From Fragilaria crotonensis (Eukaryota; Bacillariophyta; Fragilariophyceae; Fragilariales; Fragilariaceae), in NCBI GenBank assembly GCA_022925895.1, contig JAKSYS010000183.1, positions 30,056 through 94,055 of the forward strand: DNA of 64,000 bases, given 5' to 3'. Both the position numbers and the translations under genes were made by a program. The notes under the pieces were generated by a model. That model made no database searches. It saw nothing but the letters and a program-made list of their open reading frames with translations, and was not told the origin of the DNA. The first letter of the stretch is position 1. Each line of letters begins with the position of its first letter. Of this stretch, positions 4,667 through 47,740 are shown one piece after another.

Positions 4667-4671
4667 CACGT

Positions 4672-8699: not shown

Positions 8700-9083
8700 G
8701 CATGCTGTATTCGTGCTGACTTGGAGATTTGCCGTTTCATGAGAGCGAGGGATTCCTGTGGTCAAGGGAAATCCAGGAAGGAGATCACATTGTGCTACGT
8801 TGAACCTAAATACATACTTATAGGTTGGCTTATCAAAACGGAACCTGATGGATGATCCGAAACGGCTTCCCGTGCCCGCCTTGCTTGTGTCCTCCGAGGT
8901 GTCATCCCGTATCCCCGCCCGCACCAAAGCCATGTTGAGAAGCTGCTGTTACACATACTTTTATGCTATAGTAACCCACTCTGCTTGGAAAGCTGTTGCG
9001 CGTTGATTCGCAACAAATGATCCTGCTATTAGGGAGGAGGGAAGTTACACAAATGGGCGCACATTTAGAGTTCTCAAATTTCT
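8700..9083. other. Convergent intergenic region G1-C1
   Basis: This is the 3' flank of G1 and C1. It includes a block (8840-8930) similar to one near 5105-5190 at the 3' side of B1. No gene or element boundary is seen. Confidence 0.4.
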
Positions 9084-10229
9084 TCATGATTTTGATAGGT
9101 TCCCAGGTTTGCACCATGGAAGGTAAATCACGACATAGAGTTGCGTGGTAAGCCTTACAATATAGCCAAAAGCGAGGCTCAACACGCTGCCCGTTAAGAA
9201 TTCTGGCCTCCTGGCTTCGCTGGTTAGCTCAAATGTCGCATCGTACACTTGGATAATCGTGTCGTGGTACTTGGCATGAATAGAAATGTACTTTTCTTTC
9301 ACAACGTCGTCTAACTGTAGGATGAACTCAAATGCCAAAGCATTCAACACCATGCCAAGGGGATCCGCCGTGAAGAAAACAATCAAAAGATTAGTGATGT
9401 AAACGAACCCTTCGTAGTACGTGTTCATGCCTTTGTCCAGGAAAAGTGCCAGATCGCGCCACACAGAATCACGAGCGATCCTTTTCATTTCGACTGAGGG
9501 TTCGCAGCTCTTGCTAAAATAACTAAAAACAATTCGGGTCTGGTAGATGCATCCGATGGCAAATGCGACAACCCTTGGTAGTGCGTCGGCGCTATTCGGG
9601 CAGGAACTCGTCCCGTCGAAAAGGTATGGAGTATTCACAAGTAAAAGAATTGGAAACATCACCTGTGCGAGAAGGAGAAGGAAGAGAAGACTAATCATCC
9701 AGTAGCTGAGTAGATCCCGCGGATACGCCTCATTGTGCATGAACATGATAGTGAACATCCCGATGTCGGACCGAGACTTCATGAATTGCTGCCATTCCTC
9801 TGATTTAGCAGCTGTTACTGGTGCAACCCTAGCATCATAATCAGAATAAGAGGCTGCGGCAGCGGCATCTGCTGCAACGACTGCTACAGCATAAGCGTCC
9901 GCTGCTAGGGCAGCGGTAGTGCAATCTGTTGCAGCGGTCGCGCATTGGTCAGCAACGTCGGACCAAGTTTTGAAAACGAATGCACAGACAAAAGCCTTGG
10001 CCAAGGCATCGGCCTTGTCATCGGCGTTGGCGTTGGCCTTGGCCTTGACAACGGCTTCCGCTTCGTCTAGCACTGCTTGTGCACGGACGGCGCGTGCACG
10101 GGCAGCAGAGGCTCGGTCAGCAGCAGCCGCGGATGCGATATGGGCATCCAAGGCAATGTTAAAGGCAGCAATGCAAGGGTCTCCCTAAGCATCAGCATCA
10201 AATTCGATTGGAGAGTCTACACCGGCCAT
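9084..10229 (-). pseudogene. C1: polytopic membrane protein paralogue with premature stop at codon 15
   Basis: The family-typical ATG is at 10229 (MAGVDSPIEF), but codon 15 is TAG (10187-10185). The frame downstream stays open to 9084. That open part holds an alanine-rich region, the SDIGMFTIMFMHN motif, hydrophobic segments, the core LAFEFILQLDDVVKEKY and a C-terminal membrane segment. No ATG lies between the stop and the SDIGM region, so any product would lack the N-terminal half. The stop is shared by C2, so it predates the block duplication. The intact downstream frame suggests recent loss or unusual initiation. Confidence 0.65.
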
Positions 10230-11156
10230 GTTAGATTGCGCCTGACTTGATTCCACGCTACTTTTCCACAGTGTCCTCTCACAACTCTCCGTATGTAACA
10301 CCACTTTAGAAGTGCTTTGAACCGATAATCGTATCTTGTACTACTTGTACTCCGGAATGCTCCCAGTATCAGATGCTCGACACGAAATTGCTGCGTTAAG
10401 AAGCCTCCAGTTTCACAACCGTGTCTTGAATATGTTTTTTATGTGAAGGCGAACGAGAAGTTGCATCAACAAAGATCCTGCATACTCTTCGTGCACTTGA
10501 TACAGTCACTTCAAGAAAAGGAGAATCTTACAGATCTTGTTGCATAATCTCCAACGAGTGAAGGTTCGGATTTGAGGTCAAGGTCGATGTTCGCTCTGAC
10601 GTTGTTGGTCGTTTGGAACACACACTCGCACTGAATCTCCACTCCGAACTGAAAAAGGGCACGCGACACGGCATTATCTCGGGGGCTTTTCACTTACATC
10701 GTAGTGAACAATGTGAGTTTACTGTTCGGCTTCTGAAGTTGGGAGTTGAATCACCGTAATGTTCTGGCCTCACATCAGCCAAACGTCGCACGATTTATCA
10801 TACCAGGTACCGATTTGGTCCTGTATGCCTGGTACAATCGTATCGCGTTCGTTCCTTGTTATTATTTGGCATCCACCATCAGCTGCAACGAATGCGAATG
10901 CGAATGCGAATGCGAATGCGAAGCTTCGCATTTCAGTTCACGCATGGCTCTTCAGGTTCAAGGAGCTGGTCATCATGGCCCGGCTTTGACGGCGGAACAC
11001 GTGGTCAAAGGGGCTTATCAAAATGCACTGATTGTTGTCCTCCGAGGTGTGTCATGCCGACCCCCCGGCCCCCGCCCACCAAACTATGTATGATATGCAT
11101 ACATGTGTATGATACAGGATGAGAAAAGCCACTCTTTCGCGACAACATACAGCACT
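10230..11156. promoter_or_regulatory. Upstream region of C1 with repeated cassette
   Basis: It contains the family upstream block (CACTTTAGAAGTG near 10304) and the repeated intergenic cassette (about 10480-10820), with a weaker form of the inverted repeat near 10706. A hexanucleotide array (GAATGC, about five units) lies at 10888-10920. No divergent partner gene is present here. The TTA cluster of transposons begins at 11157. Confidence 0.45.
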
Positions 11157-11159
11157 TTA

Positions 11160-11937
11160 GGCCGGTGCTTACAGCAAACGAAACGTCCCGCAAAACAGAA
11201 CGCCGCGTCTATTCCGGGGAAAAATGGTCCTTACAGCCCCCAAAACTGCCCCCGAATGGCGCGCGCGTTTCGGGAATCCGGGTAATTTTGATCGAAACCA
11301 CAGAACGCCGCGGGCGTTCTGTGTGAAAGCCGGGTTCGCACGAAACGCAACAACCGAGTTTGTGTATGAAGTGCTACGTAATTAGAACTCGGACTAAATG
11401 GGACCAGACATGGGACGGTGTGGTACTACAGTATGCTGTGCCAATGGAGTACAATGCGAGTTGCGGTGCGCGGGCAGGCGGCTATTCTTGTCTTCGGAAC
11501 TCATCTGATTGTCACCGATAACCGCATCCGATAGATAAGCTCGTCGTTTGATCCGAGACGGCGAATCGTAGCATCCGAACGAAACGAGCGCCTGCCTTTC
11601 TTTCACGAGCCGCGGCATGTCTGTCGAGTGCTTCTTGCGGTTTTTTGGCCCATTTGCTCATGGCGGCAAATTTGTTCGACGAACGAAGTGACAAGCGACA
11701 AACGAGACGACTGATACACATGATACCTTTAGTACATTTTTAACGCAACTACATTCAACGCCTGATTTCTTTTACACTTATTCATGTCAGTATAGTATAC
11801 ATAAAATGCTCTCCGATTCTGCGGTTTTGTGGTTATTTCTAGGGAGTACGCCTGTAAGGACCATATTTCACGTTTTCACGGAACAGTACGTGACGTCCGT
11901 TCTGCTGAAAACGTTTCGTTCGCTGCAAGCACCGGCC
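11160..11937. mobile_element. Harbinger-like MITE alpha (778 bp, TTA duplication)
   Basis: Inverted termini start GGCCGGTGCTTACAGC (left) and GGCCGGTGCTTGCAGC (right, reversed) and match for about 27 bases with few differences. It is flanked by TTA at 11157-11159 and 11938-11940. The termini resemble those of the element at 1322-2729, so both likely belong to one family. No transposase was found. The right-hand TTA is also the left flank of the next element. Confidence 0.85.
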
Positions 11938-12053
11938 TTAGGCCCGTTCCAATCGCTGCAGATTCAGCCGCAAAATCAGCCGCAGATTGCATTCGTATGA
12001 GTCAAACTTTTCTGCGGCTGATTTTTCAGAGCTGCGGCTGAATAACCTCCAGG

Positions 12054-12413
12054 CAGGCTGTGTTATTTGGGGAAAGTTCCCCAAAACACCAAAATAACTT
12101 ATTTCGGGACATTTTTGAAACTTATTTTGGGAACTTTAATTGGGAACATTACAGTACACAGTACAGTGAGAGTCCTACGTGATTCCTACGTGGATCGTCA
12201 CTACATCGATGATATCATACAGTAAAACAGTAATTCAGTACTACTTTGACCGAGTCGCCAGTACGACGCCAGTCCAAAAAAGATTCGGGCGATGGCCAGT
12301 TGATCTCTACTGAATCCTACGTATTCTACACGGTTTAAATCGGGAACTTTTAAAATGTTTAATTGGGAACAAATTCCCAAAATAAGAAAAAGTTCCCAAA
12401 ATAACACAGCCTG
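12054..12413. mobile_element. hAT-like MITE nested in the Harbinger element (360 bp, 8-bp duplication)
   Basis: Inverted termini CAGGCTGTGTTATTT match at both ends. The eight-base duplication CCTCCAGG lies at 12046-12053 and 12414-12421. An 8-bp duplication and a CAGG start fit the hAT superfamily. It is too short for a transposase, and the inner sequence repeats GGGAAC/GTTCCC motifs. Confidence 0.8.
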
Positions 12414-12450
12414 CCTCCAGGCAATCCTTGGGAGGTTTTTCAGCCGCAAT

Positions 12451-12527
12451 TCAGCCGCAGAATTTTAGGTGTTCTCAAATCAGCCGCAGAATTTTAGGTG
12501 TTCTCAAATCAGCCACAGAATTTAAGG
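12451..12527. repeat. 29-bp tandem repeat, about 2.6 units
   Basis: Units beginning TCAGCCGCAGAATTTTAGG start at 12451, 12480 and 12509, the last partial and mutated. AGCCGCA motifs also occur in both ends of the Harbinger element, so this may be a subterminal transposase-binding array. Confidence 0.6.
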
Positions 12528-13250
12528 TGCACAACAATCTTGGATTTGCTGTCCCATACCACACCAACAAGCAATGAGTGGCGGCAGCAGCATGTTGTCA
12601 TCCTCCCTGCTGGAAGAATTGGATGACTTGGATTTGTGCATTCTTCTCCTTCTACTACATACACTGGAGGGTGATTTAATTGTTCTCAGAGCAAATCTCA
12701 TCGCAGCAAGGGAACGGATTAGAAGGGAAGACTTCACGGAGAAGCGTGCGAAGCCCAATGTTGCGATGCGACAATCTTTTGATCAAATCATTCAAGTGCT
12801 GTCACCCATTCATTTTCGCAGAATGTTTAGGATGAATCGATGATCTTTTGACAGACTTTGTGAATGCATCATCGCCAAGGTTGGAGAGACTACATTTAAG
12901 TCGCAAGAGTGGCTGCTTTCCCATGAAGCTACGAGAACGTCAACGTACCACGCGACCAATGCCCTGAGAGGTATTCTATCAGGGGAAGTTAAAATTGCAA
13001 TTATGCTACGCCTTATGGCTGGAGCCAGTTATCTTGATGTCCTGCTCACATACGGTATCTCAACTGCTTCTGTGTATTTGGTGTTCCACGAAGCACTTGC
13101 CTGGATACCCTCGACGTTTCAATTTTCTTTCGTGAAATGGATTGTTTCTAAAGACGAAGCCGCTCTGAACAGTGTTGCAGAAGGATTCTTGTCAGCAAGT
13201 GGTGGGGTTTCAGGAAGTGCATTGGTGCTTTAGATGGCGTCGCCATTATA

Positions 13251-15053
13251 TACTAAACTCTTCTATACATGTTTATAACCGGCGATCTATTTCTAGGTCG
13301 ATTCATTTCATGTTGCTAGCCTCAAAGGGCGGGCGAATTGGTTAGGGACAGAACAAGATAAAGTTGCAATAGCAGAGCTATACGACAGCAGACAGGATGA
13401 AAACATGGCGAAAGCGAACGCGTGCGCATAGTGGACACACGGAGGAGGAAAAGAAGCGATGTTCAGAGAATTCGCAGCAGTAGAGTAGAATCAGGATGAC
13501 GAGGAGGGAAAGAAGCCCGTGATAGGAAGTTGGAGCTGTAACAGCGGGTCCGCGGAGCGGAGAGCAGACGCCAAGGAAGGCACGGACAAAGAGATGGGAG
13601 GATCCGCACCAAGAGGAGGGGAAGCATAGGGAAAATAAGTCGATAAAAGTTGTTGGCGCGTCCCGGTTGCAGAGGAGTGGGAGGTGGCAAGGCGCGCAAG
13701 ACGAAGCCATCGTTTGCGTTGTCGGGGGGGCTGACGGAGTCTGTCTTCCAGGGGTAGAGTAAAATAACTCTGTAGTATTGGCGAGAATGTTGACTTCAGG
13801 GAGTAGAGTTGGGAGATGGCGTGATTTAGTGAAGCATGGACAATGGCAAGACTATCGGAGCCGACTTCATGAAGCACTGCATTCCTCCTTTTCCAGATGG
13901 CCAGAGAGTAGTCTTGAACAGCCAGAATCACATCAGACAGTGAGGGTTCGGTGCGTTTTCGACTATTAGTCTATTAGTCGAGACTTGCACTGGCGACGAG
14001 GCAGCGGCAGAACCCCATTCTAGGCTAACAAAGCCACGGGAGAAGTTTAACCAACCGATTGCATGTTGTCGATACAGTGCGCGGTCAGCATAAAAAGGAG
14101 CGCTGGGACGATCAGCTTCTGTTGGTGCGAGGAGGCTCGACGATACCGCAAAGGATGCAGGATTGAGAGTCCAGTCTCGAATGGCTCGAAGGAGAGTAGA
14201 GCCGCGTTCGCCATAGTCCGCAAGAACCTTGCGTAGGGGAATCATGGCATAATACCGAAATGCAAGAGCACGAGGTTCGACACATGTGAGCATATGTAGA
14301 AAGTCCTCCGCTTCTGCGCAGTAGGGGCATTGACGCGCAATCTCCAAATTGGACCCGCCGCTTCCAAATTTCGCACGCTGAGATCCGAGGTTAAGCCAAT
14401 TGTGAACCAGCTTCGAGCGGGTGACGGGGTTTACAAGGGCAGGGCGTCGAGCACCCTGCATGAAGGAGTCCCATGCAATGGATTCCCAGATTTGATTGGT
14501 CCATTTGTACTTGGCTTGCAGAAATGCACGGTGGCGAGCCAAACAGATGGACTCACGGAGGCGAGCAATGTAATGCGACGAGATGACTTGCCCAGAGTAT
14601 CGGACAGCAACAGAGAGTGTTCGAGGGATAAGAGGAATGGAAAGAGTGCGCTGTGCAGCATTGCCTGATTGTTGTTTCAGCTGATCAGTAGCCATCGTAT
14701 CGCACAGAACGTTTAGCTGTGCGGGAAACGGCAGGTCGTCAAAGGCCGTGGAGTCATCCTGGTGGTTGGGAACATGAGTAAGGCGAAAATGCTTCAAAAC
14801 GTAGTGAGCGGAGCTCATTGTAGACAGAAGATCGGCGTGGTTGGGAAAGCGTCGTATGGGAATCAGATCGCGAAGCAGCTTGACGTTGCTGATGGCGCTG
14901 GTGCTGTCAACATACAGACGAAAGTTACATTGAATGTCCACCTGGTGGTAGGTGGCGAATTCGTTGACATAAAGAGTGAGAGATGCAATCGCAGCAGCTT
15001 CGCTGCGAAGCGAGCTCTGGCACCGATGCCATCCGTCAACAGGACCAGAGTTC
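13251..15053 (-). mobile_element. 5'-truncated LINE fragment with RNase H (about 1.8 kb)
   Basis: It is flanked by a perfect 15-bp duplication (GGCGTCGCCATTATA at 13236-13250 and 15054-15068). The minus-strand content is the 3' part of a LINE polyprotein, and the 5' end stops abruptly inside the RNase H domain, as expected of truncated reverse transcription. No clear poly(A) is seen at the 3' end (near 13251). Confidence 0.85.
13491..15053 (-). pseudogene. LINE ORF2 C-terminus: RNase H plus Cys-rich region, frameshifted
   Basis: The reading begins NSGPVDGWHRCQSSLRSE, typical of the RNase H fold (Glu in RSEAAAIA). It continues with the Asp of YVDSTSAI and HVPNHQDD. A zinc-binding-like CPYCAEAEDFLHMLTC follows near 14310. 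Around 13930 the coding sequence shifts frame and continues (ILAVQDYSLAIWKRRN) to 13491. The reverse transcriptase part is missing by truncation. Confidence 0.75.
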
Positions 15054-31108: not shown

Positions 31109-33745
31109 TCACCAACCTTGAGCGAGCTTTCGAATGCGTTCGAAAACTTCGCGATTGAGGCCCTTGGTAAGGTAGTCAGCCAACTGGTCAGTGGTTGCAA
31201 TCTTGAGCACTTCAACATCTCCGTTGCGGACGTGGTGCCAAAAGAAGTGCCACTTAACCAGGAAGTACTTGGTGCGATTAGTAATGCGTTGCTTGGTAGC
31301 GAGCAGCAGAGCACCGTTGTTGTCTTCAAAGACGCGGCAGCGAATGGTAGACTTGAAGTCAGGTGGCAGAGTCAATTCCTTGCAGATTTCTCCAAGAAGA
31401 TCACGAAGTGGCAACAGAGTCCTCATGCTTGCACTGAGAGCAGAGTACTCAGATTCCAATGTGGACAGGGAGATCTCTGTTTGTAGTTGAGACTTCCAGA
31501 GAATTGGACAACCTCCAAGGGTGATGATGTAGCCGGTGCGGGACTTGGCGCTGGTGTCAGAATGATCAGGGTCACGGCCATGGAGTCCAGCAAAGTCAGC
31601 ATCAACATAGCAATCAAGAGAGAGGTCGCCAGTTGGAGTCACAACAGTTCCTTTGTCAGCAGTACGATGCAAGTAGCGGACAATGCGTTTGATTGCAATG
31701 GCATGGCTCTTCTTGGGAGAATGATTGAACCTGGCAACTTGACTTACTGCAAATGTGATGTCTGGTCTTGTGTTTGTTGACAAGTACAAGAGCATTCCAA
31801 CAATAGAGCGGTAGTTCCAGAACTCATCCATGGGTTCTCCATCAGGGTCAATCCCAAGGCATGCTTGCAAAGCAGGGGTGTGGTTGGAGTTGCAGTCTTG
31901 AAGTCCTGTTGCCTTTATGATCTTCTGGATCAAACCCTTTTGTGTTAGGGTGACAGTGTTGGCAACTTCATCCTTGACAAACTTGATTCCAAGGAAGTCA
32001 GTGAATGTGCCTTCACGAGTGAACTCCAAACCCAAATCAGTAAGATCCTGGAACAGTTTGTCAAGATCCTTCTTGTTGGAGTAGGCAATCCCAAGATCAT
32101 CAACATAGAGAACAATCATGATGGTCTTGTTGTACAAGAGGCATGAGTCTGTGGCACTCTGCTTCAATCCTTGGAGGAGGAGTGCTTCACGAATGTGTTG
32201 ATACCAAAGGTGGGGAGCAACCGAGAGACCGTAGAGGCTCTTAACAAGTCGTAGGCAAGTCCTTTGGTCGCTTGGCTGATCAGACTTGAAGCCCCTTGGC
32301 ATGTGGATCCAGACTGGGTCAGTTAGGTTAGCTTGGACAAAGGCACTGCTGAAGTCAATGGAGCAAGTTTGCCATCCCAATGTTAGGGACAAGACAAGGA
32401 ACAATCGAACTGAACTCCAAGCAACAACTGGGGCATAGGTTTCAGGTTCTCCTTCTTCAAGGTCGCCTCGAACACAGTAGCGCGCTTTGTACTTGGTGAT
32501 TTCTCCATCTGGGGATCGCTTGCGCCGAAATACCCAAGTCCCTGGGAGAATCTTGGTCTTGGCTTCAAGGATACTGACTTCCTTCCAAGTTCCATTCTTC
32601 TCAAGGCTTGCCACTTCCTTGGCAGCTGCCTCCATCCACTTGGTCACATGCTCAATGTCAGCCATAGCTTGGTCAAAGCTCAGAGTGTCAGGATCAGATG
32701 CAGTTGCCTTGAAGGCAGTTGGGGAAAGGATGATTCCATTTTCCTCAAAGATCCAAGCACTTGGAGAAGCCAAGTATCCATGGCCTTGAGTGTTGTCGTA
32801 TCCAAGGCGTTGTGGTGCTGCGCGAATGCGGTTGGACCGGCGCGGAGACGTTGGTGGCGGAGGCGACTTGACTGGTTGCTCGTCACGTGGTGAGTCAAGG
32901 GCGAATGCATTGTCTGGAACAGGACTCTCCCTCGCTTCAGACATTGGGGTCTGCTCCAGAACTGGGGAGAAGATTGGCTGATGAACTGGGGAGATCGGGG
33001 TAGCTGGTACCTTGCGTGGCGTCGCTTCCTTGGCTTGTGAGCTGGAGTGTGGACGGCGTTGCAGAGATGAAGTTCTGATGTCTGGCGTTGGAGGAGACTG
33101 GAGAGACCGAAGATCGATAGACTGCTCCCTCGTTTGAGACATCAAAGGAGTTGGAGGCCTTGGAGTGAGCAATGGAGAACTTGGCAATGGCTGTTGGACA
33201 GTTGGTGTCCTGGGTGGAGCCTCAGCCAAGGGAGGAACTGGGAGTTGTTCAATTGCAACAGCTTCATCCATGGAGGCAGCAACTCTTGTTTGGTTCTCAT
33301 TGATGGCTTCTGTAGCTTGGGAGTCCATTCGCGCTTCCTCTGTAGCATCATTGTCGTCGTCGTCATCGAATGGGAACTGATATCTTGAGTCGCCAAACAA
33401 ACGGGCCCAACGCGTTGTATTAAAATCCGGGAGGGCATCCACATTAGTAGCCACCGTTGCAAACCAGTCATCAAACACAATGTGATATTGGGGAGTGATG
33501 TACCCTGTCTCTGGATTCAAAACCAAGGGGACTGTGCTTGCATGCTTCTTGGAGAGCCCCATGTTGACGCAGCGGATGGACCGAGGCTTCCAGCGAGGCA
33601 GCTTCTTTCCATCTGCAATGGTTTTCTCAAGAGCATACACAGGACATCCCCACACATGCAGATCATGATACTTCCTTTGCTCCCACCTGGACTTAGTGAA
33701 GACATCACTTGGACAGAGACCTGTTGCCAAATCAGGAACATCATC
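31109..33745 (-). pseudogene. Copia pol, 3' part: reverse transcriptase and RNase H
   Basis: It resumes at Asp-Asp-Val-Pro right after the DNA transposon and stays open to 31109. It starts in the integrase C-terminal region (LHVWGCPVYALEK), then a Ser/Pro-rich linker. The reverse transcriptase has KARYCVRGD, QTCSIDFSSAFVQANL, LVKSLYGL and an intact YVDD (32107-32096). RNase H follows, with DCYVDADFAG, STLESEYSALS and VFEDNNGALLLA, ending at DYLTKGLNRE. All catalytic motifs look intact in this half. The protein is interrupted upstream by the insertion and by a stop at 45685-45683. Confidence 0.85.
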
Positions 33746-33889
33746 TAAGGGTGCCAAAACCAAGTCGGCTCTTGGATATGAAAAACCAATTATCTTTGAT
33801 ATGAGAATTTTTTGTTCATAATTTTTACCTAAAATATAGGTAAAAACTTAGGACTAAAGAGCTTGTACATCATGTGTATGAAGCGGGTT

Positions 33890-34110
33890 TCCTCGTATTC
33901 CTGAACTCTGAAATTTATGTTTCCTGAACTTTTTCATCTCTTGCATAGGAGCTCATACTTTGCATTCCTGAGCTCCAAAATTTCAATTCCTGAATTTCAC
34001 TGACTCATTTTTACTAACACTCGGGTGGGATTCCTGAACTCTTGGACTCTAAATATATGAACTATACCACTTCTTCATTTGTGATCATGAATTTCAATTC
34101 CTGAATTAGA
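33890..34110. repeat. Left subterminal repeats (TTCCTGAACT type)
   Basis: At least six copies of TTCCTGAA(C/T)T or close variants lie here on the plus strand. The same motif recurs in both orientations near the right end (45400-45560). Such arrays usually bind the transposase. Confidence 0.65.
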
Positions 34111-34302
34111 TATTCGAAAAGAAGAAGTTTGCTGTGTAGTGTGTATGAAGTAATCACCTCAGTAGTTCTGAGCTGACATTGTTCATATAATAGATGTTAT
34201 TGTCGCTCATTTTAACTTTTGTTGGAGATTAGTTTTAATTGTGCCTATTCGTGTGGCTTTGATGAACCATTCTACTATTCATTACTAAGTGTCTGATCTA
34301 TT

Positions 34303-35716
34303 CTAAACTGCCTCCACTTTCAATTCACTGTAGACAAGTTCAGGAGCAAGATGACTGGAGTAGTTATCATCCTCCTCATCAGAGTCCTCGTCAAATACAT
34401 CAATGCACTTGTGTGGGCGTTTCTTACCCTTGTCATCAAATTGTTTCCTGACCCCCCCGGCCAGACTCCTTTTTCCTTCTGGACAGAAACATTTTAAGTA
34501 GTTCCTGGTTGAATGTTGGGGTGGTTGATTTCTTTCTATCATTCTTGATGGCCATGTATAATTCATCGTATTTCCTCATTCCCACCTGTGACCAACCACA
34601 GCCTCCCCCATTATCATGAGCACCCTTGTTCCTGGAGAATGTGTAAAGTGGTGGCTGCCGAACATGGTATTGCAAAGATTGGTCAGAAGTTAGGATGTGG
34701 TTTTTTCATTTCATTTAGTATCATAGTGTAACTTACGGGTAGGTTGTTGTTGTCCTCATCAGTCCATGTACCAATTCGCTGTTTCCAACAAGTGATAACA
34801 AAACAAGTCAGTTTCTTGTTGTTTGTTCTGTGACAAACCATTCGGATAAACTTACCATTTTCTCTGTCTTAACTAATTCCGCGAACCACCTCTTCCCATA
34901 GTTGATCAGGCACAGCAAAATGAATGCTTCATCACTTATGGACAGGATTTTCTTGCTCCATACTTTTCTGTCAGTTGTTGCACAGTGGTTCTCCATGTTG
35001 ATAGTGTTATTCCACTTGCTGCTGCCGACAATGCATGGGGCATAGGTGTCTATGATTTGGGCATAGTAGCAGATATTATCCCTCATCTTGAGGAGGTAAC
35101 TGGTTTCTTCCTCGCTTCCACTGTATAGGCTGTGTTCATACGTTCCTAAATTGGAAGTGAATCCCTCTGGATGCAAGGTGTTTGATGTTGAATGCAAGTG
35201 AGTGTGAGTATGCTCGGGCTTTGGCAAAGTACACTCACTTCAATTCCTCACCTTTGAATTTCGTTTGCATGTTTTTATTGCATTGTTCCGAAGATCAGTG
35301 TGTGTTTTACAACTATTCTCCGCATCCCAAGCCACCAGTTTTCGGTTCCTCGAATGTTTGTGTGCTTCATGATAAAGCCACAAAGTGTTTTCTCATCTTC
35401 ACTGAAATGAGAATGATAGTCTTTTGATAGAACTTCCAAATAGAGAACACGTGTTTTTGATGCAAGTCTTGATCACACTGATTTGATTCTCTTCTGTATT
35501 TTCCGTCATGCTCATGTCCACTATGCTGCTTAGCCCTGGAACCGATGATGTTAGTTGGCTGTCACTTGATTTCCCGACTTTAATAGTTGAAGGTAGGGAT
35601 GGTGGATTTCCGTATGCATGCTTCTGTCCTAGTTTTGCATCCATTTTCCGTGGCACTTCTTCCTCCTCCTCCTCCTCGTTGTCACTTTGAATCAGATCAT
35701 TGGGATCTGTGGTCAC
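34303..35716 (-). pseudogene. Reverse-strand accessory gene of the large transposon, probably with introns
   Basis: Several open segments read in one direction. The first has an acidic Glu-rich start (35716-35399). A middle segment contains SDEAFILLCLINYGKRWFAEL (near 34900). A last segment has GGGCGWSQVGMRKYDELYMAIKNDR and a basic then acidic end, to 34303. A GT-starting intron is plausible near 34740. The segments resemble a type of protein I have seen in diatom genomes, but I cannot assign a function. Joining of segments is uncertain. Confidence 0.4.
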
Positions 35717-36167
35717 TCGTTCACGCCTCTTATGAAGTCTCTCCTTTGTTTCCTAGAGCTGGGCTTTAAGGCAGTCATGCCTGCTGCTGTTTGGTGTGCC
35801 ATTGATGCCATGGTTGTATTTGTGGTGCTTCCTTGTTGTGTGAAAACTTTCCGATTGTGCGCCAAATTTTGAACACTGAAAATCCTGTTTGTGGGATAGT
35901 CTTTTTGCCACCATTTGAATTTCATACCAAGTACCGAGTTGGTATGTAGGTTCTACACATTCATGCAGGGTTTTCAAATTTTGAATTCATACCACACCCC
36001 CCTTCATTTTTTACATACACCAAAAATGTACCGAAAGTAAATGTACAATTTGAATGCACGCTTTCCCGAACTTCTGTTTAGTGAATCTGTGTCCTGTCAA
36101 TTTCAACACCTCATTTTCACTTCACTCGTCCTCTTCAAAACCCTTTCTTCAAAACCTTCTCTTCAAA

Positions 36168-38701
36168 ATGTTGTCCTCGTCTGCTTCCTCAAAGGCACCC
36201 CTGCTCTTCTGTCAAAACCCCTTCTGCCTGAATTTCAACAAGAAACCCTTTTCCAATCAAGCAGCATATACACAGCATATTGATAGAAACATCGGGTGTT
36301 ATAATTTCATTGTGAAGAAATCACACCATGCAGCAACACATGGGGCTTCTGCTTCACACCGTCGCCGTCTTCATGAGGATGGGAATATCACATGCACAAG
36401 TAACAAGAGGCCTGCCCTTTTAAGGCGACATATGGTGAATGATCCCCACATGGATTTTGATGGCACAGACAACCTTCTGCAGTTTCCGGCTGGCAATGGT
36501 GTGGAAGTTGAAAGCACTTCTTGTGAGGACATCGAGGACTGCAACAAAAGTGATGATTTGTCCATGTTAAGTGATGACCCAAACATTCTTACCTGTACGA
36601 ATTCTGCACTTGATGAAGATGTGGAAGCCCCATCATTTCGTTCAAACTTCATGTATACTACCGATCAGAAGTGGACTGTTTCTCTCCTCAAAATCCTGGA
36701 CCATGCCAATGCACCCGACTACACTTTTGGTCAAGTCCTGGAGTGGGCACGCTCTGCATCTGCTGATAATTATTCTTACAACCCAGTGGGTGGACTCTCG
36801 CGTGCCAAAATGTTGATGCCCTGATCAACTCAGTTCGTAATGGGAAAAGACTGCTTCCCTTTGTACGAAGAGTGGATGTACATCATGGCTCTCCATCAGA
36901 TGTGATTTGTTTTGACTTCGCTTCACAGTTGCTAAGTTTGCTGCAAAATCCAAGCATTATGACTGCAGAAAACCTTGCCATCGATATCAATGATCCCCTG
37001 AAGCCCTACCACAAATTGAAAGGCAGCAATGTTTTGGGTGAGGCACTGTCCGGGAGTGTCTATCGCAAGGCGTATGATCGATTAATCACAGATCCTCAGA
37101 AGCAATTGTTTGTTCCAATCATCCAATGGATTGATCGTACCTCTGTAACAGGGAATGATCGCTTTTCACTTAAACCCTACATGTTCACTCCAGCCATTTT
37201 TACAGAAAAATTCAGAAGGAGTATCAAGGCATGGGGCTATCATGGCTTTCTCCCAAAGAGGAAGTCCTCATCAGCTCAGAAGCAGACACTTCGTATGGGC
37301 GATGCCATTCGTATCTATCATAAGGAGCTGGATGCTGTATTGGAGACCTTTCGGAAATGTTCACCACAACTGTGTGGTGTTCATTTGCCAATTGGTCCAA
37401 AGGGTAGAATCTGTGTCGACATTGTCACATGTGTGTTGTTCATCATTCAAGATATGCAAGAAGGAGATATGCTGTGTGGTCGGTATGGTGTTCACACCAG
37501 TGGAATCCAACGCCCTCATCGGTGCTGTGATGTCAATTATGATGATCTGAAGAACTGTGATGTCCATTGCAAATACCTGGTAGCCTCGGATATGGGTTTC
37601 ATTGCCAGGAGTAATGATGATGATCTCAGGAAACGATGGTCTCAACATAAACTTGAAAATGCATTTGAACACATTGCCTTTGCTGACCCTGAGCGTGGAA
37701 TCTTTGGGGCCACTCCTGTGGAGACAATGCATGCATTTCGGAAAGGTGTCATCGAGAAAGTAACAAAACTTATATTGGACAGTCTTCCAGCATCCAAGAA
37801 GGCTGCCTTTGATGACCTTGCAATAGCATTTCACAAGTCTCATCGCCAAACCTACCGAAAGGAGTATCCATCAACAGATTTCAGCAATGGGGTAACAAAT
37901 TTGACAAAGATAACTGCATCAGAACGCGTTGGCCTCGTTTTTGTTTGTCATCCTCTTCCAATATGAAGCAGGATGGCAAATGATCCAAACATGTCTTGAG
38001 AAAAGAACAACTAAGAAGGTTCCTGAGGTCCTTGAAGTACTTGAATCTCTCCTTTGTTTCGATGCTTGGCTAAACCAGAGTCATTACTGGGAGACTACAA
38101 ATCCAGCACATGTTGCAAATGAAATGAAGAAACATCAGGATTCCATTCGCAATTTCATGGATATGTGCAAACAGTCCATTCCCTTGAAAGTTGAGGGAAA
38201 GGAGGATGACAAGAAAAAGGGTAAGAAAAAGGGAACCATCATAAGGAAGGAAGGACAGAAAAGCAATGCCGAGGATGCATGGAAGTTTCGAAATTCCATG
38301 AGTTGTTACACATTGTGGATGATATGTCTCGGTTTGGCTCTCCAGTGAACTTTTGTGCACAGCGTCCAGAATCACTTCTAATTCCTGCTGCAAAGCACCC
38401 TGGGAGACGGGCACAGAAGCGAATTGAGGGTTCTGCATATGAACTTCAGGCAGCCCAACGTTTAATGTACTCCTTCATGATCGACACCATACACACGCGC
38501 ATATGGGAGCAACCAGATGGTGATGCTGATGTACCCGACAGCCACCATGATGATGAAACAACAAGGAATGGAATCTTTCAGAGCACCGGACAAGCAACAT
38601 TTGGCTGTGTTTATCGATTCAAATCGAGTAAACAAATTCAGTACAAAATTGAATGGGACACCAGAACTCACCGTGATTTACTTGCTCTTCCCTGGAGTTG
38701 A
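36168..38701 (+). pseudogene. Putative DDE-type transposase of the large transposon, frameshifted
   Basis: The ATG at 36168 (MLSSSASSK) is followed by a C2HC-like zinc finger (CQNPFC ... HIDRNIGC). LDHANAPDYTFGQVLEWA leads to a one-base shift near 36813. The core then reads FVPIIQWIDRTSVTG (possible first Asp), LKPYMFTPAIF, GRICVDIVTCVLFIIQD and EGDMLCGRYGVHTSG...RPHRCC (possible second Asp region), and TPVETMHAFRKGVIEKV (possible Glu). Frame shifts near 37950 and 38280 lead to KFHELLHIVDDMSRFGSP...HPGRRAQKR and an end at 38701. The overall pattern recalls Plavaka/KDZ-type transposases. Catalytic residue assignment is inference. Confidence 0.6.
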
Positions 38702-39112
38702 TTGAGTTTCTTTTGATTCCTTTAAGGAATCCGACTCAATAACATTTTGTACTGAATACAAACGAGATGTCCACACCTTTCGATGTCATCCCTGCTATCA
38801 GTCCGATGGTCCCATACATGACTGGATGATAATTGACTTTGGGAACATGGGAAGTTTCCTGTCGTTTGGCTCTTGTAGTTGTTGTTGACTCACCCGCGGA
38901 TCCGGACGAGAGATACCAACTGGTTGTTCAATCAACAACAGAAGAAATTAAAGAACACGAGTCAACACTGTTGAGGAGTGGAAGTGGTCTCCAACATACC
39001 ACCTTGTCTCTGGAAACACTGTCGTGGCCCCTTGTTTTGTTATATCCATCTCACACAACAGTTCCACAGTTCTTGAGACAAAACCATATACAGAGTGGGC
39101 ATCCAAATTCGC
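38702..39112. other. Convergent spacer in the large transposon
   Basis: Lies between the ends of the transposase and the reverse gene. No feature seen. Confidence 0.4.
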
Positions 39113-42100
39113 TTAGCTAGCTTGTTGCATCAAAGTACCTAAAGGAAACATGTTGCCATCGTCTGTCCGAGCCCTCACAATCTTTGGACCATCACCATCG
39201 GCTCGCTTTCGCTTGTTTGAATCTACCCAAAGAGTAAAACTTGCCTTCCTGTTGATGTCTGGGCCATCATAAAAAAAGAGAGTTGCCTTCCGAAAGCTCA
39301 CAAACTCATTCTTCACAGTTGAGGTTGAGCAGCAATAATCCAAGGCCTCCTTGCAGAGAGGAATTGCAACCACTTCATTTGCATCATACACATACCCACT
39401 GTGAATGGTAACTGCATGTGAACCATTTCCATCGGATTCATTGAGCACAGCCAATACCATTGTGTCCTTCATTTGTTCTTGAAGGAGTTGCCAATCAAAC
39501 ATGTGTGGTCTCTTCAGAACTTGTCGGGTGATCCATGTAGGCAGCTGAGTTTCAGCAAACTGTCCCACCTTTCGAATGGCATCAACAGTACCTCCTCTTA
39601 GGTGACTTTCACCAAAATGGTTAATGGATTTGGCAGCATTATCAAAGCCAATTGCATATAAAGCACTGGCCAATGACTTTGAAACACAAAGATCTTCACC
39701 TTCGGATTGTACAAAGTGGACCTGGGGTGCTTCAGGAACCTGCAGCTTGGGATATTCATGCAAATGTGATTCTTTGAAATCGCCCACTGGTATGTCAACA
39801 AATCCACACCTCATACGCTTGACCTCCTCCAAGAATCCTGTCTTAAATTGTTTCACAAAGTCTTCATCAGTTCGAATGGGCTGTGTTTCTCCATGAAAGA
39901 TGACCTCCCAGTAACCAGGGGCCTGTATCTGCTTCATATGTTTACCCCCCTGGTGAGTCACTGTTGCTCCTTAAGGACCTTTTCGACTGAGGATCAAACA
40001 CCCATTGTGTCTGTGGGGGAACGTATCGCAGCTTATGTACCTTTTTAGTATGAATGAGGATGGTTTCCCCTTCAGGAACAGGTACAAATCCATCCGTGTT
40101 TCCAACGTTAATGACATGTTGGATTACCCCTTTTGCATAATCGGCATCCTTGATCCAGTCTTTGGAAACAGCAATTTTTTTCTTCCTTCTTTTCCAACTT
40201 TCCTTCTTTTGTCTTAACATTGTAAACCAAAAGTGCAACAAAGGTATCTTCACGTGGGTTGTACTTGAGGCCATGCACCATGGCCTCAGTGCCAAATGTC
40301 CATTCCAATTCAAATGCCCTTTTGAATTTCTTCCTTTCCTTCTTCATAAACTTTATTTCTTTCGTGTACTGCTCTCTGTAATCATCCTTTGTCTTTTTCT
40401 TCTTACATCCATCAATTTTTCTTTGCATCTCGGCCCGCTTCTTTTCCACATTCTTCATGTGATCTTTGGTAGAGCTCCAACCCCAGTACAAAAATCTGTC
40501 CTCCACGAATTTGTTCATTGCTGCTTCATCCCTAAGAAGCACTGGTCGATCTTCACCGTCATCTCCTTTCTTTCGCCACTTTTTTCTAAATTTCTCAACT
40601 TCATTGTCTGATACCAATGTTTTGTACCTACTTTCTCCGAAAGGTAATTTCGGGCATTCATCAGGTACATGAATGTCTCCATAACCATACGTACGAGGAG
40701 GCCCACCTTTCCATACCCTGCTTGCTCGGGGAAGCTTAGCAGGATCATTCCACCAGGCTTCGTTGAGATCAATATCTTCTTCCTGTTGTTCAGGTCCATC
40801 AGCAGATCCAGATGGTTTGAAATCGGCAACATCCTCCTCTGATGGCAAACTCCGTTCATTGGCATTTGGCAAAACATCCTCCCTGGAAGAAACATCCTCC
40901 AACGTAACACTGTCGTCCTCTGTGGCATTGGATGGTACTGGCACCCAGGGCCACGTGAAAGTCTGAAGTTCCAACTTCAGACTTCCGTAACAGGGATCCA
41001 TCAAATGATTTGAATTCTGACGTTTTGGGACTGTGACGTGTTGAAATTCTGCAATGCGATCAAACAGCAAAAACCACTGTGCTTTCATCGCATGCAAGTA
41101 GGAAATGGAAGCCGAATCATCCCTTTTAAACAGTTTTGTGAATATTCCCTGTGGAAAACAGCAAATGTGCTCCTTCGATTTCACATCAGTTGACATCTGG
41201 ATTTCCATGCGATCGCGTCTAAACATTTCGTTGTGCTGCAACTCCATCTTGAGTCCCAATGATATCTCGGAGAATTATTGCAATTGCAGCTATAATCCCA
41301 ATCCCACAGCTATGGCCATCTTCTTGCAGGGAAGAACATCATTATCCAACACCCTCAATGCAGGGAATGTATTGGTGCCCTTCATTTGCCCAAAAGGTTC
41401 GTCCGAACGGACTGAGCCACTTCATCTTGTTTGGAGTGCTGCTATCATTTGCACTGTTTTCCTTTGCTCCTGGTAACTGAAGGCAAGGTTCAGGAACCAG
41501 ACAACACCGACATTGTTTGGAATTTTCTCGTGCCGGAGGGATGAAGACTGCAATAGCGAAAAAACATGTCCGGAGGCATGATACATCATCCGTGGCAGCC
41601 ACAACGTCTCCAGCATTGAAAACAAATGTTGCCCCCAATGATCGTTGCTGAGATTCGTAGGAAACACAATCAACCTTTTCTGCAGAAGCCCTGGATAGAA
41701 CAACAGGACTTCCTTCACAACACGATTCATTTGGTCATCATACTTCTGGTAAAGTTCTTCCTTAGAACTTCCATACCTTTTTCACAAGGGCAAGACATTC
41801 TGCATGATCGGCTCCATTGGCTACCATCAAGTCGTTTCGTACTTCTTTGCAGATAGATGACGTTGAAGACGTGCAAAGCAACCTTGAATTACCTGCATGT
41901 CGTCAAAAGACAGGATTGCAACTGATGTGTGATACCTGCCATCCCTCATGAGGAGTGAAGTCATCATTTGCAGCTCACGGGTGGCCATCCAAGTTTTCCC
42001 ACCACTTTTGCTATGATCAAGCCTTTCCTGTGATCCCATTTCTCCAAAACCACGCAACTGGTCAGGCAGAACCAGGTCACCAAATGGTGGTGGAAGAAGG

Positions 42101-43430
42101 TTGTTCAAATAGTCCAGACCGGTAAATGCCTCTTCCAGATCTGCATTTGTCAGCAATGCTCCACTTGCAACATCATCTTGGAGATCGATTGTTGATGAAG
42201 GGTATTGGCACCATACAAATGTTTTTCTGGTGTTGCTACCATCATTCCGTGCACTGACTGTCTCATTGTTGCTCTGCACAATCTCCAAAACATCACTGCT
42301 CACGAGGAAGGGGAACCACCACTCGATTTTGCGACTATATTGATCTTGCTTTCTTCCTCTGACTCAACAACAGCACGCGGGAACCATCATTTCTTGTTGC
42401 ACTGATCACATCACTGTTGCTTTCAACAACCTCGACAGCAGCACTGTTAGCAGCACTGTTCAAAAGGGAACCGGAAGAAAGTTTCATCAGAGGGATAATG
42501 CAGTGCTCCTCAGACTCTGGTACAATCCATGCAAATCCACCTGTGGTCTCGTCCATTAAGGTGTCGGCAATTGTCTTGGGAAGAAACTCAATGCCAGTTG
42601 TGTCTTGGAGATTGATTTGACGGAACCCACAGGCTTGGTAGAATTCCTTTGGCTCGTCATGGGGACACTGCAAGTAGATGTCCACACCATGTAGGCTCTC
42701 CTGACATTGTGACAGCTCACGGTGAGACAATAATAAAAAAGTTGAATGCTTGATGAGCATTACTAACATCAGACGTCCAAACCCTTGCCGTCTCCAGGAT
42801 GTAAGACCGGATGGCTTCCGTGATTCAGATTCTGCAATCAACAGCCAAAGCACCAACGACGCACCAACTTCATCTCCAATTCCACTTGAAATGTAATGCA
42901 TGCAATAACAACAGAGTCTTGGCACCCTATGACAGATTTCTTGAAGGGGTCATCTTCTTTTCAAGAGGACGTCCCACAATCATTATTGATGGATCAGAAT
43001 TCACAGCACGATCGATAGAGCTCAAATCAGCTTCTGTAGAATTGAATGATGTGCTGTAGAATTGCCTTGCAGCTTCTGTCGCCCACTTAAACCTTGTCGC
43101 CTCAGCTTTGTTTGTTTGGACACGTGTGGGGTACAACGTAACTACCTTGAATTGCCAAATTTCATTGGAGTCCTCTCTTTCGTTCTGAGTCATAATCTTG
43201 GACAACGGGAGGTCTTGAAACCAAGAGCTGAACATGTGTAGTGGAAACTCTGAAACAGCACGAGCGGGTGATGATAAAAAGACTCGAACTTGCGATCTGA
43301 ATTGTTTATTGACCTTTGTTCCTGGAGGTGGTGTGAATTCATCCATACCATCACGGAACAGGTACGCCTTATCCATAGGGACTCCTCCTTGCTGACGAGA
43401 GACAGGGGACAGTGATGGAACCTCTGCCAT
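39113..43430 (-). pseudogene. Large reverse gene: GNAT-like, Ulp1/C48-like and papain-like segments, multiply frameshifted
   Basis: It starts at the ATG at 43430 (MAEVPSLSP). An acetyltransferase-like segment follows (about 42940-42640), with LVLWLLIAES, RRQGFGRLML (the R/Q-x-x-G-x-G/A motif) and FYQACGF. Next is a C48 peptidase-like segment, with the His in PTNLSNDHWGATFVFN (near 41650) and the Cys in DGHSCGIGIIAAIAIILRD (41320-41264). An acidic, then Lys-rich region runs 41250-40110. The last part (39961-39113) looks like another cysteine peptidase (LCVSKSLASALYAIGF and SHAVTIHSGYVYDANE). At least five frame changes separate the parts. Ulp1-like enzymes remove SUMO-type tags; the role in the element is unknown. 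Confidence 0.55.
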
Positions 43431-43789
43431 TTTGTTGGTTGAAATATGAATAATCCTCCAACTGGTGTGCGTGTATACAACTCTTGAGCATGCGAACAGA
43501 CAACTGACAAAAAGAACCAATACCGGTAGATCAATCTGGTTTGATTCACTCAAATCAATGAGAATCTCGCAGATGACCGAATATTGGATTCTAGATGACA
43601 GATTGCCTTACAAACTCAATCGAAGCACGCACACAAGACGAAGTACTTATTCCCTCAATTAACAACAAAATGAGAAGCACAACACTTGTCGACAAGGATC
43701 CTAATTATGAAAGGAGAAGAAGAGGAGGATGTGAGATTGAAAGCTGGAAAATACAATCATGTGCAATGACACAACGTCAACAAGAAAGA

Positions 43790-44560
43790 CTGGAGTACAG
43801 TACCAGCACAATGTTGTACGGAAGCCTCCAAGGTACTGTCGTGGTGCGAACTCGTCCCAGTACTTGACAGTACCATGAGTACAGTACGTAGACAATGGTA
43901 CAGGCACAACAGGAGTACCTCAACAAATCAATCAGTTGCTCACAATGATGGAAACGACGATTCAACACAACATTCTTGTGTTGATAGGACAAAACAATCA
44001 AAAACTCACGAACAAGAACGACAGTTAAGTGCCCTTGTTAGTGGAAAGGAAGAAGAAGCAAAGGGCAAAGGGACAAGCACAGAATGAAACATTCAATGCG
44101 GTGTTGGGCATGACACCAAGTTGTGACATCGACAACCGTACAGCAGGCACAAGGTAGTATTGTAATAAACCGTAGCGTCCACCAAGGTACTGTCATACTC
44201 CCAGTACTTGATAGCAACATGAGTACAGTACGTAGACAACAGTACATGCACAAGGTAGTGTTGTACCGTAGCCTCCAAGGTACTGTCGTATTCCCAGTAC
44301 TTGGCAGTACCATAAGTACGGTACGTAGACCACGGTACAGGCGCGACGTAGTGTATTACCGTAGCCTCAAGGTACTGTCGTACTCCCAGTACTTGGCAGC
44401 ACCCTAAGTACGGTAGGTAGACGACTGTACAGGCGCGACGTAGTGTATCACCGTAACCTCCAAGGTACTGTCGTGCGAACTCGTCCCAGTACTTGACTGC
44501 ACCCTGAGCACCGTACGTAGACAACGGTACTGGCACAACGGGAGTACCTCAAAACTCATT
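43790..44560. repeat. Tandem repeats of about 93 bp
   Basis: Units contain CCTCCAAGGTACTGTCG, CCCAGTACTTG, AGTACGGTACGTAGAC and a CGACGTAGTGT end. Four units start near 44175, 44268, 44362 and 44453, and a separate one near 43824. The units are rich in GTAC palindromes. Confidence 0.75.
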
Positions 44561-45399
44561 CGACCATCACCATGATGGAAACATTCAATCAACACAACAA
44601 TCAACACGAAAAAAAGCACATTTGCAGTCTTACCACTTAAGACTGCAATGTCTTGTGGGTGGGAAAGGACGAAGAAGGAGCGAAGATGCCAAATAATGGA
44701 GCATCAATGTGGTGTCGGGCATGACACCAAGTGGTGGAGTGCTCAACGAACGAAGTGTGAGATGTGACACTTCCCGCAAAAAAAATCACGTACGATTCTA
44801 CTAAAGACAATACTGTGGCTGAAAAAGAATTAATTCCTTGTAGAAATATACAGCATGCACTGGTATTGGTGCCAAAGAATTAATCAGTACATACTATCGC
44901 CTACAATTCTACGGTTTGTTGTTGAAAACACAAGATCACGTAGTACGTAGCATAGTGTCATAGGAGTACTCGCATGATACAATACTGTACTAAAATTATA
45001 CGCTACCACCATACCGTAGTACACAAAACACAGCGCTATAGTAATGAAAGTACCGTACACAGTACCACACTACCATACACACAGACCACGCCGTAGCTAC
45101 CATACTGTACACCACCGCACCATACTAAACGTACTGTAGCAGGCACCGAACACCATGCACCATGCACCAGACACGCCCATAGCTACTTGTACAACGTACA
45201 ATGTACAGCGTATAACCAACAACGAACCATTGCGCTAGTACGACGGTAGTATCCCAGCTGACAGCACTGTAAAAACCGCTGTATACTGTACACTGTACGG
45301 CACAACCAATAGTCCACCCACGATACACCATGCTACTCCAGTATTTCGTACAAAACACGTACAGTACTCGGTGTTTTATGTGCATCGAAATAATGAAGA
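44561..45399. other. GTAC-rich non-coding segment of the large transposon
   Basis: Many short TACAGTAC/GTACTGTA palindromes and TACCGTA-type motifs, with no credible gene. It may be degenerate tandem repeat. Confidence 0.45.
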
Positions 45400-45560
45400 A
45401 AAAAGCTCAGGAATAATACTGCAGTAGTTCAGGAGCAAAAAAAATTCTTCATAAAAATGAGGAAACAGCAAATGTCGGAATCCTGAACTAAATAAATAAA
45501 CCAGAAAAAAACTTCAGGAATCCTGAACTAAATATGGGAATCCTGAAATTTTTCCAATAA
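45400..45560. repeat. Right subterminal repeats
   Basis: Copies of AATCCTGAACT and AGTTCAGGA in both orientations mirror those at the left end. Confidence 0.6.
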
Positions 45561-45612
45561 ATATGATAAAAAATTCTTGTATCAACTATGGTACTTAGTT
45601 TTGGCACCCTTA

Positions 45613-47740
45613 GATGATGGTTGTGGTGAAAGATAGCATGGGAGACTGCCATTGGCCAAAGTGTTGCATCAGCCACATCTGGTCAATGTACCGCTGAATG
45701 GAGCATCATTGTCCGAGCGATCGACATGATCGTTTGGATTGCCCTCTCAGCATGGCCATTGTGATGGTGAGCTCCAACTCCAGCAAACTTGACAACTTGC
45801 TTCAGAGTTCCAAGGTGCTCAGTGAACTTAGCTGAGGTGAAGCTCCCACCATTGTCAGAGAGATAGGATTGTGGAATGACTCCACTGTCCCTTGCCATCA
45901 ACTCAAAGTTCTGCTTGGCCTTCAAGGTCTCATGAGTGTTCAGATGCTTCTGAAACTCGACATGCACAAAGTTGGAAGCATGATCAATGAAGAGGCAGCC
46001 ACCAGCAAACATGTCTGAGTTCAAGCTCCTTGTTCCAGCTGAAGAGAAGAGCCTTCCCTTTGTTCCACAAATGAAGTGATCAATGGAGACTTGTTGTCCA
46101 GGGAGCAAGTTATATGCCTTGAGAACTCCAGCTCGATCCTTGATAACAGTTGTGATCTTGGCAGGAGCTGGGCGCTGATGTTGCTTCCCATATTGGCATG
46201 CAGCACACTTGGGAGGGTTGACAATCCGGCAGGCAGCAGTGTGGAGTGATCGATGCGACTCACTCCGACTCAGGACTCCAGTTCGCATGATGAATTGGAT
46301 CTTGCGAAAAGAAAGGTGTCCAAGGCGGTGGTGCCACCTTAACAACTCCTTCTCAGCTTCAGTCAAGTTGAGGTTGCTCTCGTGAACAGTGTTCAAAGTA
46401 ATGTTGAGAGCTGCAACTGCCTTGGGAGTATCTGAGCTGCGGTGTGCATCAGAGGTAGGCAAGTTGTTGTCAGGGTTGACTCTTGCAATGAGTTGCCCTC
46501 TGGCTTCATCAGAGGTGCCACTCAAGGTCAGTTGATGAGCTTCAATGGTGATGGTTTCTCCAGGATAAGCTTGGAGCAAGCTTGTGGTGGATAGGAGCCT
46601 GACCTTGATGCAAGACACCAAGTATGCTGGGACCTTGAGCATCCTTAGGTTGCCCAGAGTATCTTGTATTGCCCACAGAACATGACCTTGACCTTCAATC
46701 CTGAGTCCCTTTGCAATGCCCTGCAGTTGAGTAATAGGGCCAGGAGTGTTGATGGGTCCAACAAAGTCCTTGCGGTCAGGAGTGATCGAGATGCTTGCGC
46801 CAGAGTCCCAGATGACTGGAAACGTTGAAGTCTTGGGAAGGGATTCGCGGAAGCGGTCGCTTGACTGGAGAGCCATGCGAAGGATTGTGGAGTAGTTGCC
46901 GTTTGGAAACTTAGCCATGTTCACTTGCATTGCCATCTTGCGAGCAGCTTGAAGTTGCTTGGAGGTCCACTGATGGTTCCCTAGGCCTTGGAAGCCAATG
47001 GGAGAGACGGGGCGATAGACGCCGTTGGACTTGGGAAGCCTGCGAGCGCGGCGTCGCTGCCAGCGAAGCGGAGCGTCGAGGTAGGCGTCGTTGATATCGC
47101 AGTGGTTGATCCTTGGCCCTTCCTCTTGCGTCGACAAATCCGATGGCGAGCGGGATGTGTTACGGACCTTGGGGCAAGGTTCAGTTGGCCCATGGACGAT
47201 TGTATCGTTGCAGTGGCGGCAGGTCCAGTGAGTTGATCGCGGAATGGAGCGCTTGAGCGAATCGACACGCTGAAGGAGAGTCGCAACCTTGGAGTGAAGG
47301 TCGTTCAACTGCACTTGCTGCTGTTGTTCAACCAACGTTGGTGCATTCCTCCGAATGTAGCGTCCCATGGATCGCAAGTTAATGGGGTACCTGCGATGCA
47401 GTCCATGGGAGCGAATACTTCCGGCTTGGGGAACATTCGCGCGTCGTGTGACCTTGCGATTGTGTTGCTTGAGAGCACGACGATGGCGGCGAGAAGGTAG
47501 CTCCTTAGGATCAGGCTCAGGCGATGTTGAGCTGGGCTTAGGAAGCCAGAACAGTACGACCGTAGCCAGTAGTGCCCAAAGCAATGGAGCAATGAGCGCC
47601 TCCTGGTGAGCCTCCAAAATTGCGAGACGTGCGGGCGAACGACCATGACATGCGCTCGAAGGATTGCCATGACTTGGCTCCAATCGACGGCGTTGAAATG
47701 CGCCATGGCGAGTTGAATAATTTCCAGCGTGGAGGTCCAC
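45613..47740 (-). pseudogene. Copia pol, 5' part: protease and integrase, with a premature stop
   Basis: The open frame begins inside gag, in the -1 frame relative to it. The protease site is WDSGASISITPD (46807-46799 for Asp-Ser-Gly). The integrase has a His-His zinc part (LRWHHRLGHLSFRKI ... KCAACQYGK) and the core acids in VSIDHFICG, YLSDNGGSF and NGHAERAIQTI. At 45685-45683 a TGA stands where Trp is expected (HSAVH-stop-PDVADATLWP). Beyond it the frame reads on to the DNA transposon at 45612. Its N-terminal 100 residues include a hydrophobic segment (LLWALLATVVLFWLP). Confidence 0.8.

Follow-up and report, generated by a model that had tools for sequence, protein, structure and literature searches.

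Plavaka transposons lie within the CMCT clade (CACTA/EnSpm-Mirage-Chapaev-Transib), a clade characterized by CA..TG ends and target-site duplications of 2-5 bp (Kojima 2025, PMC12730594). Their duplications measure 2 bp in PlavakaA, whose ends read TGT..ACA, and 2-3 bp in PlavakaB, whose ends read CATCA..TGATG, and some fungal Plavaka families carry a companion TET/JBP dioxygenase gene (PMC12730594). Transposon-encoded Ulp1/C48 domains are known from Mutator-like and Ginger1 elements (PMC2836005). The literature found with the word Plavaka describes no diatom element, and a prior listing in Repbase is possible.

We analyzed a 64,000-nucleotide stretch of the Fragilaria crotonensis genome (hereafter the window), in which an element of 11,875 bp (33742-45616) interrupts a copia pol reading frame. 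We interpret it as a young copy of an autonomous Plavaka DNA transposon with a core second gene (gene 2), at a probability of about 0.85, a figure that covers the identity of the element and not the anti-silencing step proposed below. Compared with known Plavaka elements, it is distinguished by its diatom host, its length of 11.9 kb, a second gene with GNAT-, C48-, and papain-like parts instead of TET/JBP, and a third gene, ORF3. The C48-like domain is a likeness to the Ulp1-bearing Mutator-like and Ginger1 elements, but the transposases of those elements are unrelated to the one in the window, and the Ulp1 or OTU domain of Ginger1 is fused to the transposase (PMC2836005), whereas here the C48-like domain is encoded together with a GNAT domain in a gene distinct from that of the transposase.

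Element boundaries and target-site duplications

The ends of the element were fixed by comparing multiple copies, since the sequence common to independent copies extends to CATC..GATG (base C of 5'-CATCTAAGGGTGCCAAAAC), with divergence setting in directly beyond it (Table 1). The terminus pair, CATCTAAGG..CCTTAGATG, is of the CA..TG type found in the CMCT clade. The original prediction of a single large DNA transposon of about 11.9 kb was confirmed by the measured length, the matching inverted ends, and the many copies. It had placed the ends at 33748 and 45610, with 18-bp inverted termini bearing one mismatch and flanked by a TA duplication. The termini are indeed inverted and differ at one position, but they are 24 bp long, and the true ends lie 6 bp further out on each side. 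The TA turned out to belong to the terminus (CATC-TA-AGGG), and the actual duplication is AT here and variable elsewhere. An exact 2-bp duplication was found in 18 of 19 testable end pairs (AT, CA, CG, TG, GC, TA, AA, GA, or TC), with C55 as the lone mismatch and with the two copies in contig C95, which represent one duplicated insertion, among the pairs tested. The duplication was TA in only 4 of the 18 matching pairs; TA-specific insertion was rejected on the sequence of the duplications, as was an assignment to ESTA, which has TA duplications.

When 33742-45618 (the element plus one AT) is taken out, the copia pol reading continues through the junction without a stop, in agreement with the predicted restoration; the right flank has a separate in-frame TGA about 30 codons off. 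At least 40 other copia copies match the reconstituted 300-bp empty site along its whole length, the top one at 99% over exactly 300 bp, so the search for empty sites that had been suggested yielded exact ones. Genome-wide, the 19-bp end occurs 119 times with at most one mismatch, against 0 for its reversed control, and the window contains two occurrences where 0.04 would be expected. The further copies that had been anticipated thus exist, flanked by variable 2-bp duplications rather than by TA.

Table 1. Features of the Plavaka element and its insertion site, in window coordinates
Feature	Position	Strand	Remarks
Left target-site duplication, AT	33740..33741	.	Exact 2-bp duplications in 18/19 testable copies; empty site
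Left terminal inverted repeat, CATCTAAGGGTGCCAAAACCAAGT	33742..33765	+	24 bp, 1 mismatch vs right repeat
Left subterminal array, 6 copies of ATTCCTGAACT-like motif	33899..34104	+	Spacing near multiples of 22 bp
ORF3 (third gene)	35258..35921	-	Kept in divergent Plavaka loci and the 6.7-6.9 kb class; frames broken in window copy
Plavaka transposase gene	36054..38701	+	N-terminal C2HC-type finger (CQNPFC..H..C), DDE domain
PF18759 (Plavaka) match	36995..37756	+	Profile match
Gene 2 (GNAT, C48-like, coiled linker, papain-like)	39113..43553	-	Overlapping frames; convergent to transposase
Papain-like domain	39113..39961	-	Q..C..H..D/N invariant
Ulp1/C48-like domain	41270..42303	-	His motif RLIVFPTNL..HWG, ~41640-41690; Cys motif QEDGHSCGIG, ~41285-41335
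GNAT domain	42335..42925	-	Motif SWRRQGFG
93-bp tandem repeat, 3.7 copies	44182..44534	.	Inside element
Right subterminal array, 6 copies of same motif	45407..45546	.	Both orientations
Right terminal inverted repeat	45593..45616	-	24 bp
Right target-site duplication, AT	45617..45618	.	Same basis as left copy

Copies, age, and assembly quality

The genome searched comprises 62.1 Mb, and the window copy lies in its contig C95. From the first 100 of the 119 ends listed, 36 end pairs were formed, including at least 15 full-length pairs of 11.8-12.6 kb and at least 14 of 6.6-7.0 kb, together with some internally deleted copies. Nearly complete sequences were read for the copies in C361, C647, and C548. 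At the left end, 27 of the 28 other copies carry 0-0.73% substitutions relative to the window copy over 1.5-2 kb, with 5-20 gap openings in each alignment; over 11.8 kb, the window copy is separated from that in C647 by 9 substitutions and 44 gaps, and from that in C361 by 28 substitutions and 46 gaps. The gaps between near-identical copies are mostly of 1 nt and fall within short homopolymers. Indels that outnumber substitutions to this degree point to errors of long-read assembly and make frame breaks in this assembly unreliable; those of the window copy would largely be such errors and say little about decay. Most copies lie below 0.5% substitutions, which indicates a recent burst. At the level of sequence, the element is recently active, its mobility being recorded in duplications, empty sites, and near-identical copies.

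The copia sequence with its Plavaka insertion is present twice in contig C95 (C95:5260-20084; window 32223-47131), about 57 kb apart, and the flanks of the two insertions are 98.7-99.1% identical, as would result from a segmental duplication or if the assembly had joined two haplotypes. Elsewhere in the host genome, the silicon-transporter family gave 19 matches of up to 646 bits, which speaks for a diatom. At C97:29749-33762, a single 1456-aa open frame contains three fused silicon-transporter domains, and two are fused over 1008 aa in C771.

The transposase gene

The zinc-finger transposase-like gene of the original prediction was borne out as a plus-strand gene with a C2HC-type finger and a PF18759 domain, the latter scoring 42.5 bits against a cut-off of 26.3 (E=6e-11). 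The same profile matches at least 75 loci of the genome, with relatives reaching 57.4 bits. Single-base indels break the frame in the window copy; the copies in C361 and C647 have open stretches of 765 aa and 644 aa, respectively, and relatives have open frames of up to 969 aa. Three acidic residues (D361, D467, and E557) are invariant in an alignment (A1) with relatives 52-61% identical to the C361 transposase and are candidate catalytic residues, and E567 is conserved wherever the aligned sequences cover it. Between the second D and the E, a C(2)C motif occurs in only some relatives (HCRSC, HCRAC), and an H(3-4)H motif was not recognized by eye. A PDB sequence search with the transposase profile returned no relative.

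A second class of Plavaka-profile matches, at about 45 loci (e.g., C456:45037, C797:70798, and C8:16371), mostly covers profile positions 39-165 only and mostly has no papain-like ORF nearby, which suggests another Plavaka lineage in the genome. Viral contigs gave no matches when searched with the gene 2 domains and a single match when searched with the transposase, in L086 (IMGVR_UViG_3300049043_000356, 3075-13381). A piggyBac-like frame is present in this contig, together with a Plavaka transposase that shares about 50% identity with that of the window and breaks off inside phage-like sequence; although filed as viral, the contig is probably a chimeric assembly.

Domains and possible role of gene 2

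Overlapping frames in the window copy, C647, C548, and the relative in C872 lead us to infer that gene 2 is one gene, which may contain introns or frameshifts. In C872, a frame of 1145 aa comprises the GNAT part, the C48-like part, and the linker, and in C548 the linker and the papain-like part share a frame; a single unbroken frame spanning the C48-like and papain-like parts is absent from every sequence read. Inverted ends were looked for around the C872 relative, and none were found. A reverse gene with GNAT-, Ulp1/C48-, and papain-like segments had been predicted, and the GNAT and papain folds stood up well, the C48 assignment less so. In the GNAT domain, the W-R-R-x-G-x-G acetyl-CoA loop is invariant, PF13673 exceeds the Pfam cut-off in the relative in C874, and the modeled C872 domain has GCN5/PCAF histone acetyltransferases as its closest predicted fold (Z 13 over 155 residues). 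The predicted structure of the GNAT and C48 parts together is good only in the GNAT half and poor in the C48 part. The C48 assignment is the weaker one, drawn from a PF02902 match below the cut-off (E 0.006) and from conserved residues: H186, Q294, and C300 are invariant, as are HWS and Q..D..NC motifs, and the active-site Asp was not located in the alignment. The domain may have C48 activity. In the papain-like domain, Q85, C92, H182, D193, and N195 are invariant in 8 sequences, and the model (pLDDT 80) resembles staphopain (Z 8.8, 139 residues, 3.4 A) and the C39 domain of PCAT1 (Z 8.5). As modeled, this is a papain fold with a Q-C-H-N/D site and a predicted clan CA peptidase. The papain-like family matched nothing in Pfam or NCBIfam, and PDB sequence searches with the C48 and papain-like profiles returned no relative.

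We interpret gene 2 as a core accessory protein of this Plavaka lineage and propose that it acts on host chromatin or on SUMO/ubiquitin marks. Its GCN5-like domain would acetylate, its C48-like and papain-like domains would deconjugate, and the combined action would counter silencing or license transposition. That gene 2 acts on such marks, and thereby allows silencing escape or transposase licensing, is our preferred but tentative reading, at somewhat short of even odds. With greater reserve still, we raise the possibility that it is a new type of anti-silencing effector, kept throughout a lineage of diatom Plavaka elements, in which a GCN5-like acetyltransferase is joined to two peptidases, one of SUMO type and the other papain-like and undescribed; the TET/JBP dioxygenases kept by fungal Plavaka and KDZ elements would be its parallel. 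As the main alternative, gene 2 could be a self-processing regulator whose peptidase domains mature gene 2 itself or the transposase, with no silencing role, as might suit two cysteine-peptidase-like domains within one gene and the presence of the PCAT1 C39 peptidase among the nearest folds. We regard this as unlikely, because it leaves the GCN5-like acetyltransferase domain unexplained and because ubiquitin or SUMO pathways are the supposed targets of Ulp1 domains in other transposons, such roles having been discussed for both Ulp1 and OTU domains (PMC2836005).

Conservation of the gene set

The pairing of gene 2 with the transposase was further examined at 23 divergent Plavaka loci of the same genome, outside the family of the window. 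At 21 of these 23 loci, the strand opposite the transposase bears a papain-like ORF at a distance of 1.9-2.5 kb, and the GNAT part was also detected at eight of the divergent loci, C874 among them. The papain part is 48-55% identical among families. For the longest pairs, dN/dS is 0.09-0.22 in the transposase and 0.16-0.25 in gene 2, indicative of purifying selection; short segments are noisier (0.17-0.85). The conserved convergent pairing and the purifying selection argue that gene 2 is a maintained part of the transposon and not a passenger, and the earlier label of cargo is accordingly misleading for a conserved partner of the transposase in the divergent Plavaka families of this genome. 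GNAT and papain folds are frequent in host proteins, and about half of the divergent papain-like matches have no transposase match within 15 kb (among the matches listed, from exon-wise and incomplete transposase searches), as might be expected if passenger acetyltransferase and peptidase genes had been captured from the host, outside the machinery of the transposon. Such a capture is improbable in view of the unchanged convergent order and spacing beside divergent transposases, the level of papain-part identity among families, and selection on gene 2 that resembles that on the transposase.

The second reverse gene that had been predicted is likewise real: ORF3 is conserved in divergent loci, and it matched no Pfam family. 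At 14 divergent Plavaka loci, its homologues lie on the strand of the transposase, 3.7-10.6 kb away, whereas in the family of the window ORF3 lies on the other side of the transposase in minus orientation, a difference which indicates that the gene block has been rearranged. ORF3 homologues are also held by 13 elements of 6.69-6.88 kb that have the ends of the window family (e.g., C34:7629-14508 and C482:147242-154028). These elements show no transposase or gene 2 match among the matches listed and therefore look like a distinct non-autonomous class.

Both subterminal regions are enriched in TCCTGA/TCAGGA, with 6 occurrences in the first 400 bp (0.33 expected) and 6 in the last 300 bp (0.13 expected), against 9 in the remaining 11.2 kb. 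Spacings in the left array (23, 44, 22, 44, and 67 bp) are close to multiples of 22 bp, a distance of roughly two turns of the helix. Short subterminal repeats of this kind are also found in Spm, and it is at arrays like these that the transposase or an accessory protein would be expected to dock. The product of ORF3, a third core gene, could perhaps bind subterminal DNA in the manner of TNPA of Spm, a role that remains rather doubtful.

Superfamily assignment

The element resembles PlavakaB in its PF18759 transposase, its 2-bp duplication, its CATC..GATG ends, and the occurrence of companion genes in the group. Its ends match neither the exact PlavakaB form nor the PlavakaA form: with CATCT..AGATG here and CATCA in fungi, four of five letters are shared, and since the fifth base differs, membership in sub-lineage B is not claimed. 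CACTA/EnSpm elements belong to the same wider clade but have a 3-bp duplication and CAC..GTG ends, against 2 bp and CATCT..AGATG in this element. CACTA was rejected on the 2-bp duplication and the CATC..GATG ends, and Transposase_21 had no match in the genome.

The original prediction had also pointed to an affinity with KDZ (Kyakuja, Dileera, Zisupton) or to an undescribed TA-inserting lineage. KDZ elements, too, are large and carry accessory genes, and large size together with a Ulp1-like domain would suit either placement. PF18758 (KDZ), however, has no match in the window proteins at E<=1 and none in the genome, where the positive control of the search was itself silent, and the variable 2-bp duplications contrast with the 7-8 bp of Kyakuja and Zisupton (PMC12730594). 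The Plavaka profile, by comparison, is over its cut-off, with duplication and ends of Plavaka type, so both placements are very improbable and the lineage is not an undescribed one at the superfamily level. A chance composite of several nested or adjacent mobile elements taken as one, conceivable given that nested elements occur in diatom genomes and that the gene order is unlike other families, with ORF3 on the opposite side of the transposase, is refuted by at least 15 copies of nearly equal length with shared ends at different sites and by empty sites without the element.

Implications

Under the Plavaka assignment, the DDE transposase would bind the CATC..GATG ends, and possibly also the subterminal TTCCTGAA arrays, excise the element, and join it to staggered 2-bp cuts in target DNA of any sequence, giving rise to 2-bp duplications; we infer this cut-and-paste chemistry with 2-bp staggered joining. 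The superfamily is already known, and what is new, according to the literature and Repbase aside, is the conserved GNAT/C48/papain-like partner and ORF3 in diatom Plavaka. The family, in which near-identical copies go together with exact empty sites and well-defined ends, is a candidate both as a working transposon tool for diatoms and for testing the silencing of transposons in algae. The constant pairing of the transposase with a GNAT/C48/papain-like gene has a parallel in the fungal elements that bear a TET/JBP demethylase, which suggests repeated acquisition, by transposons of the CMCT clade, of enzymes acting on chromatin or protein marks.
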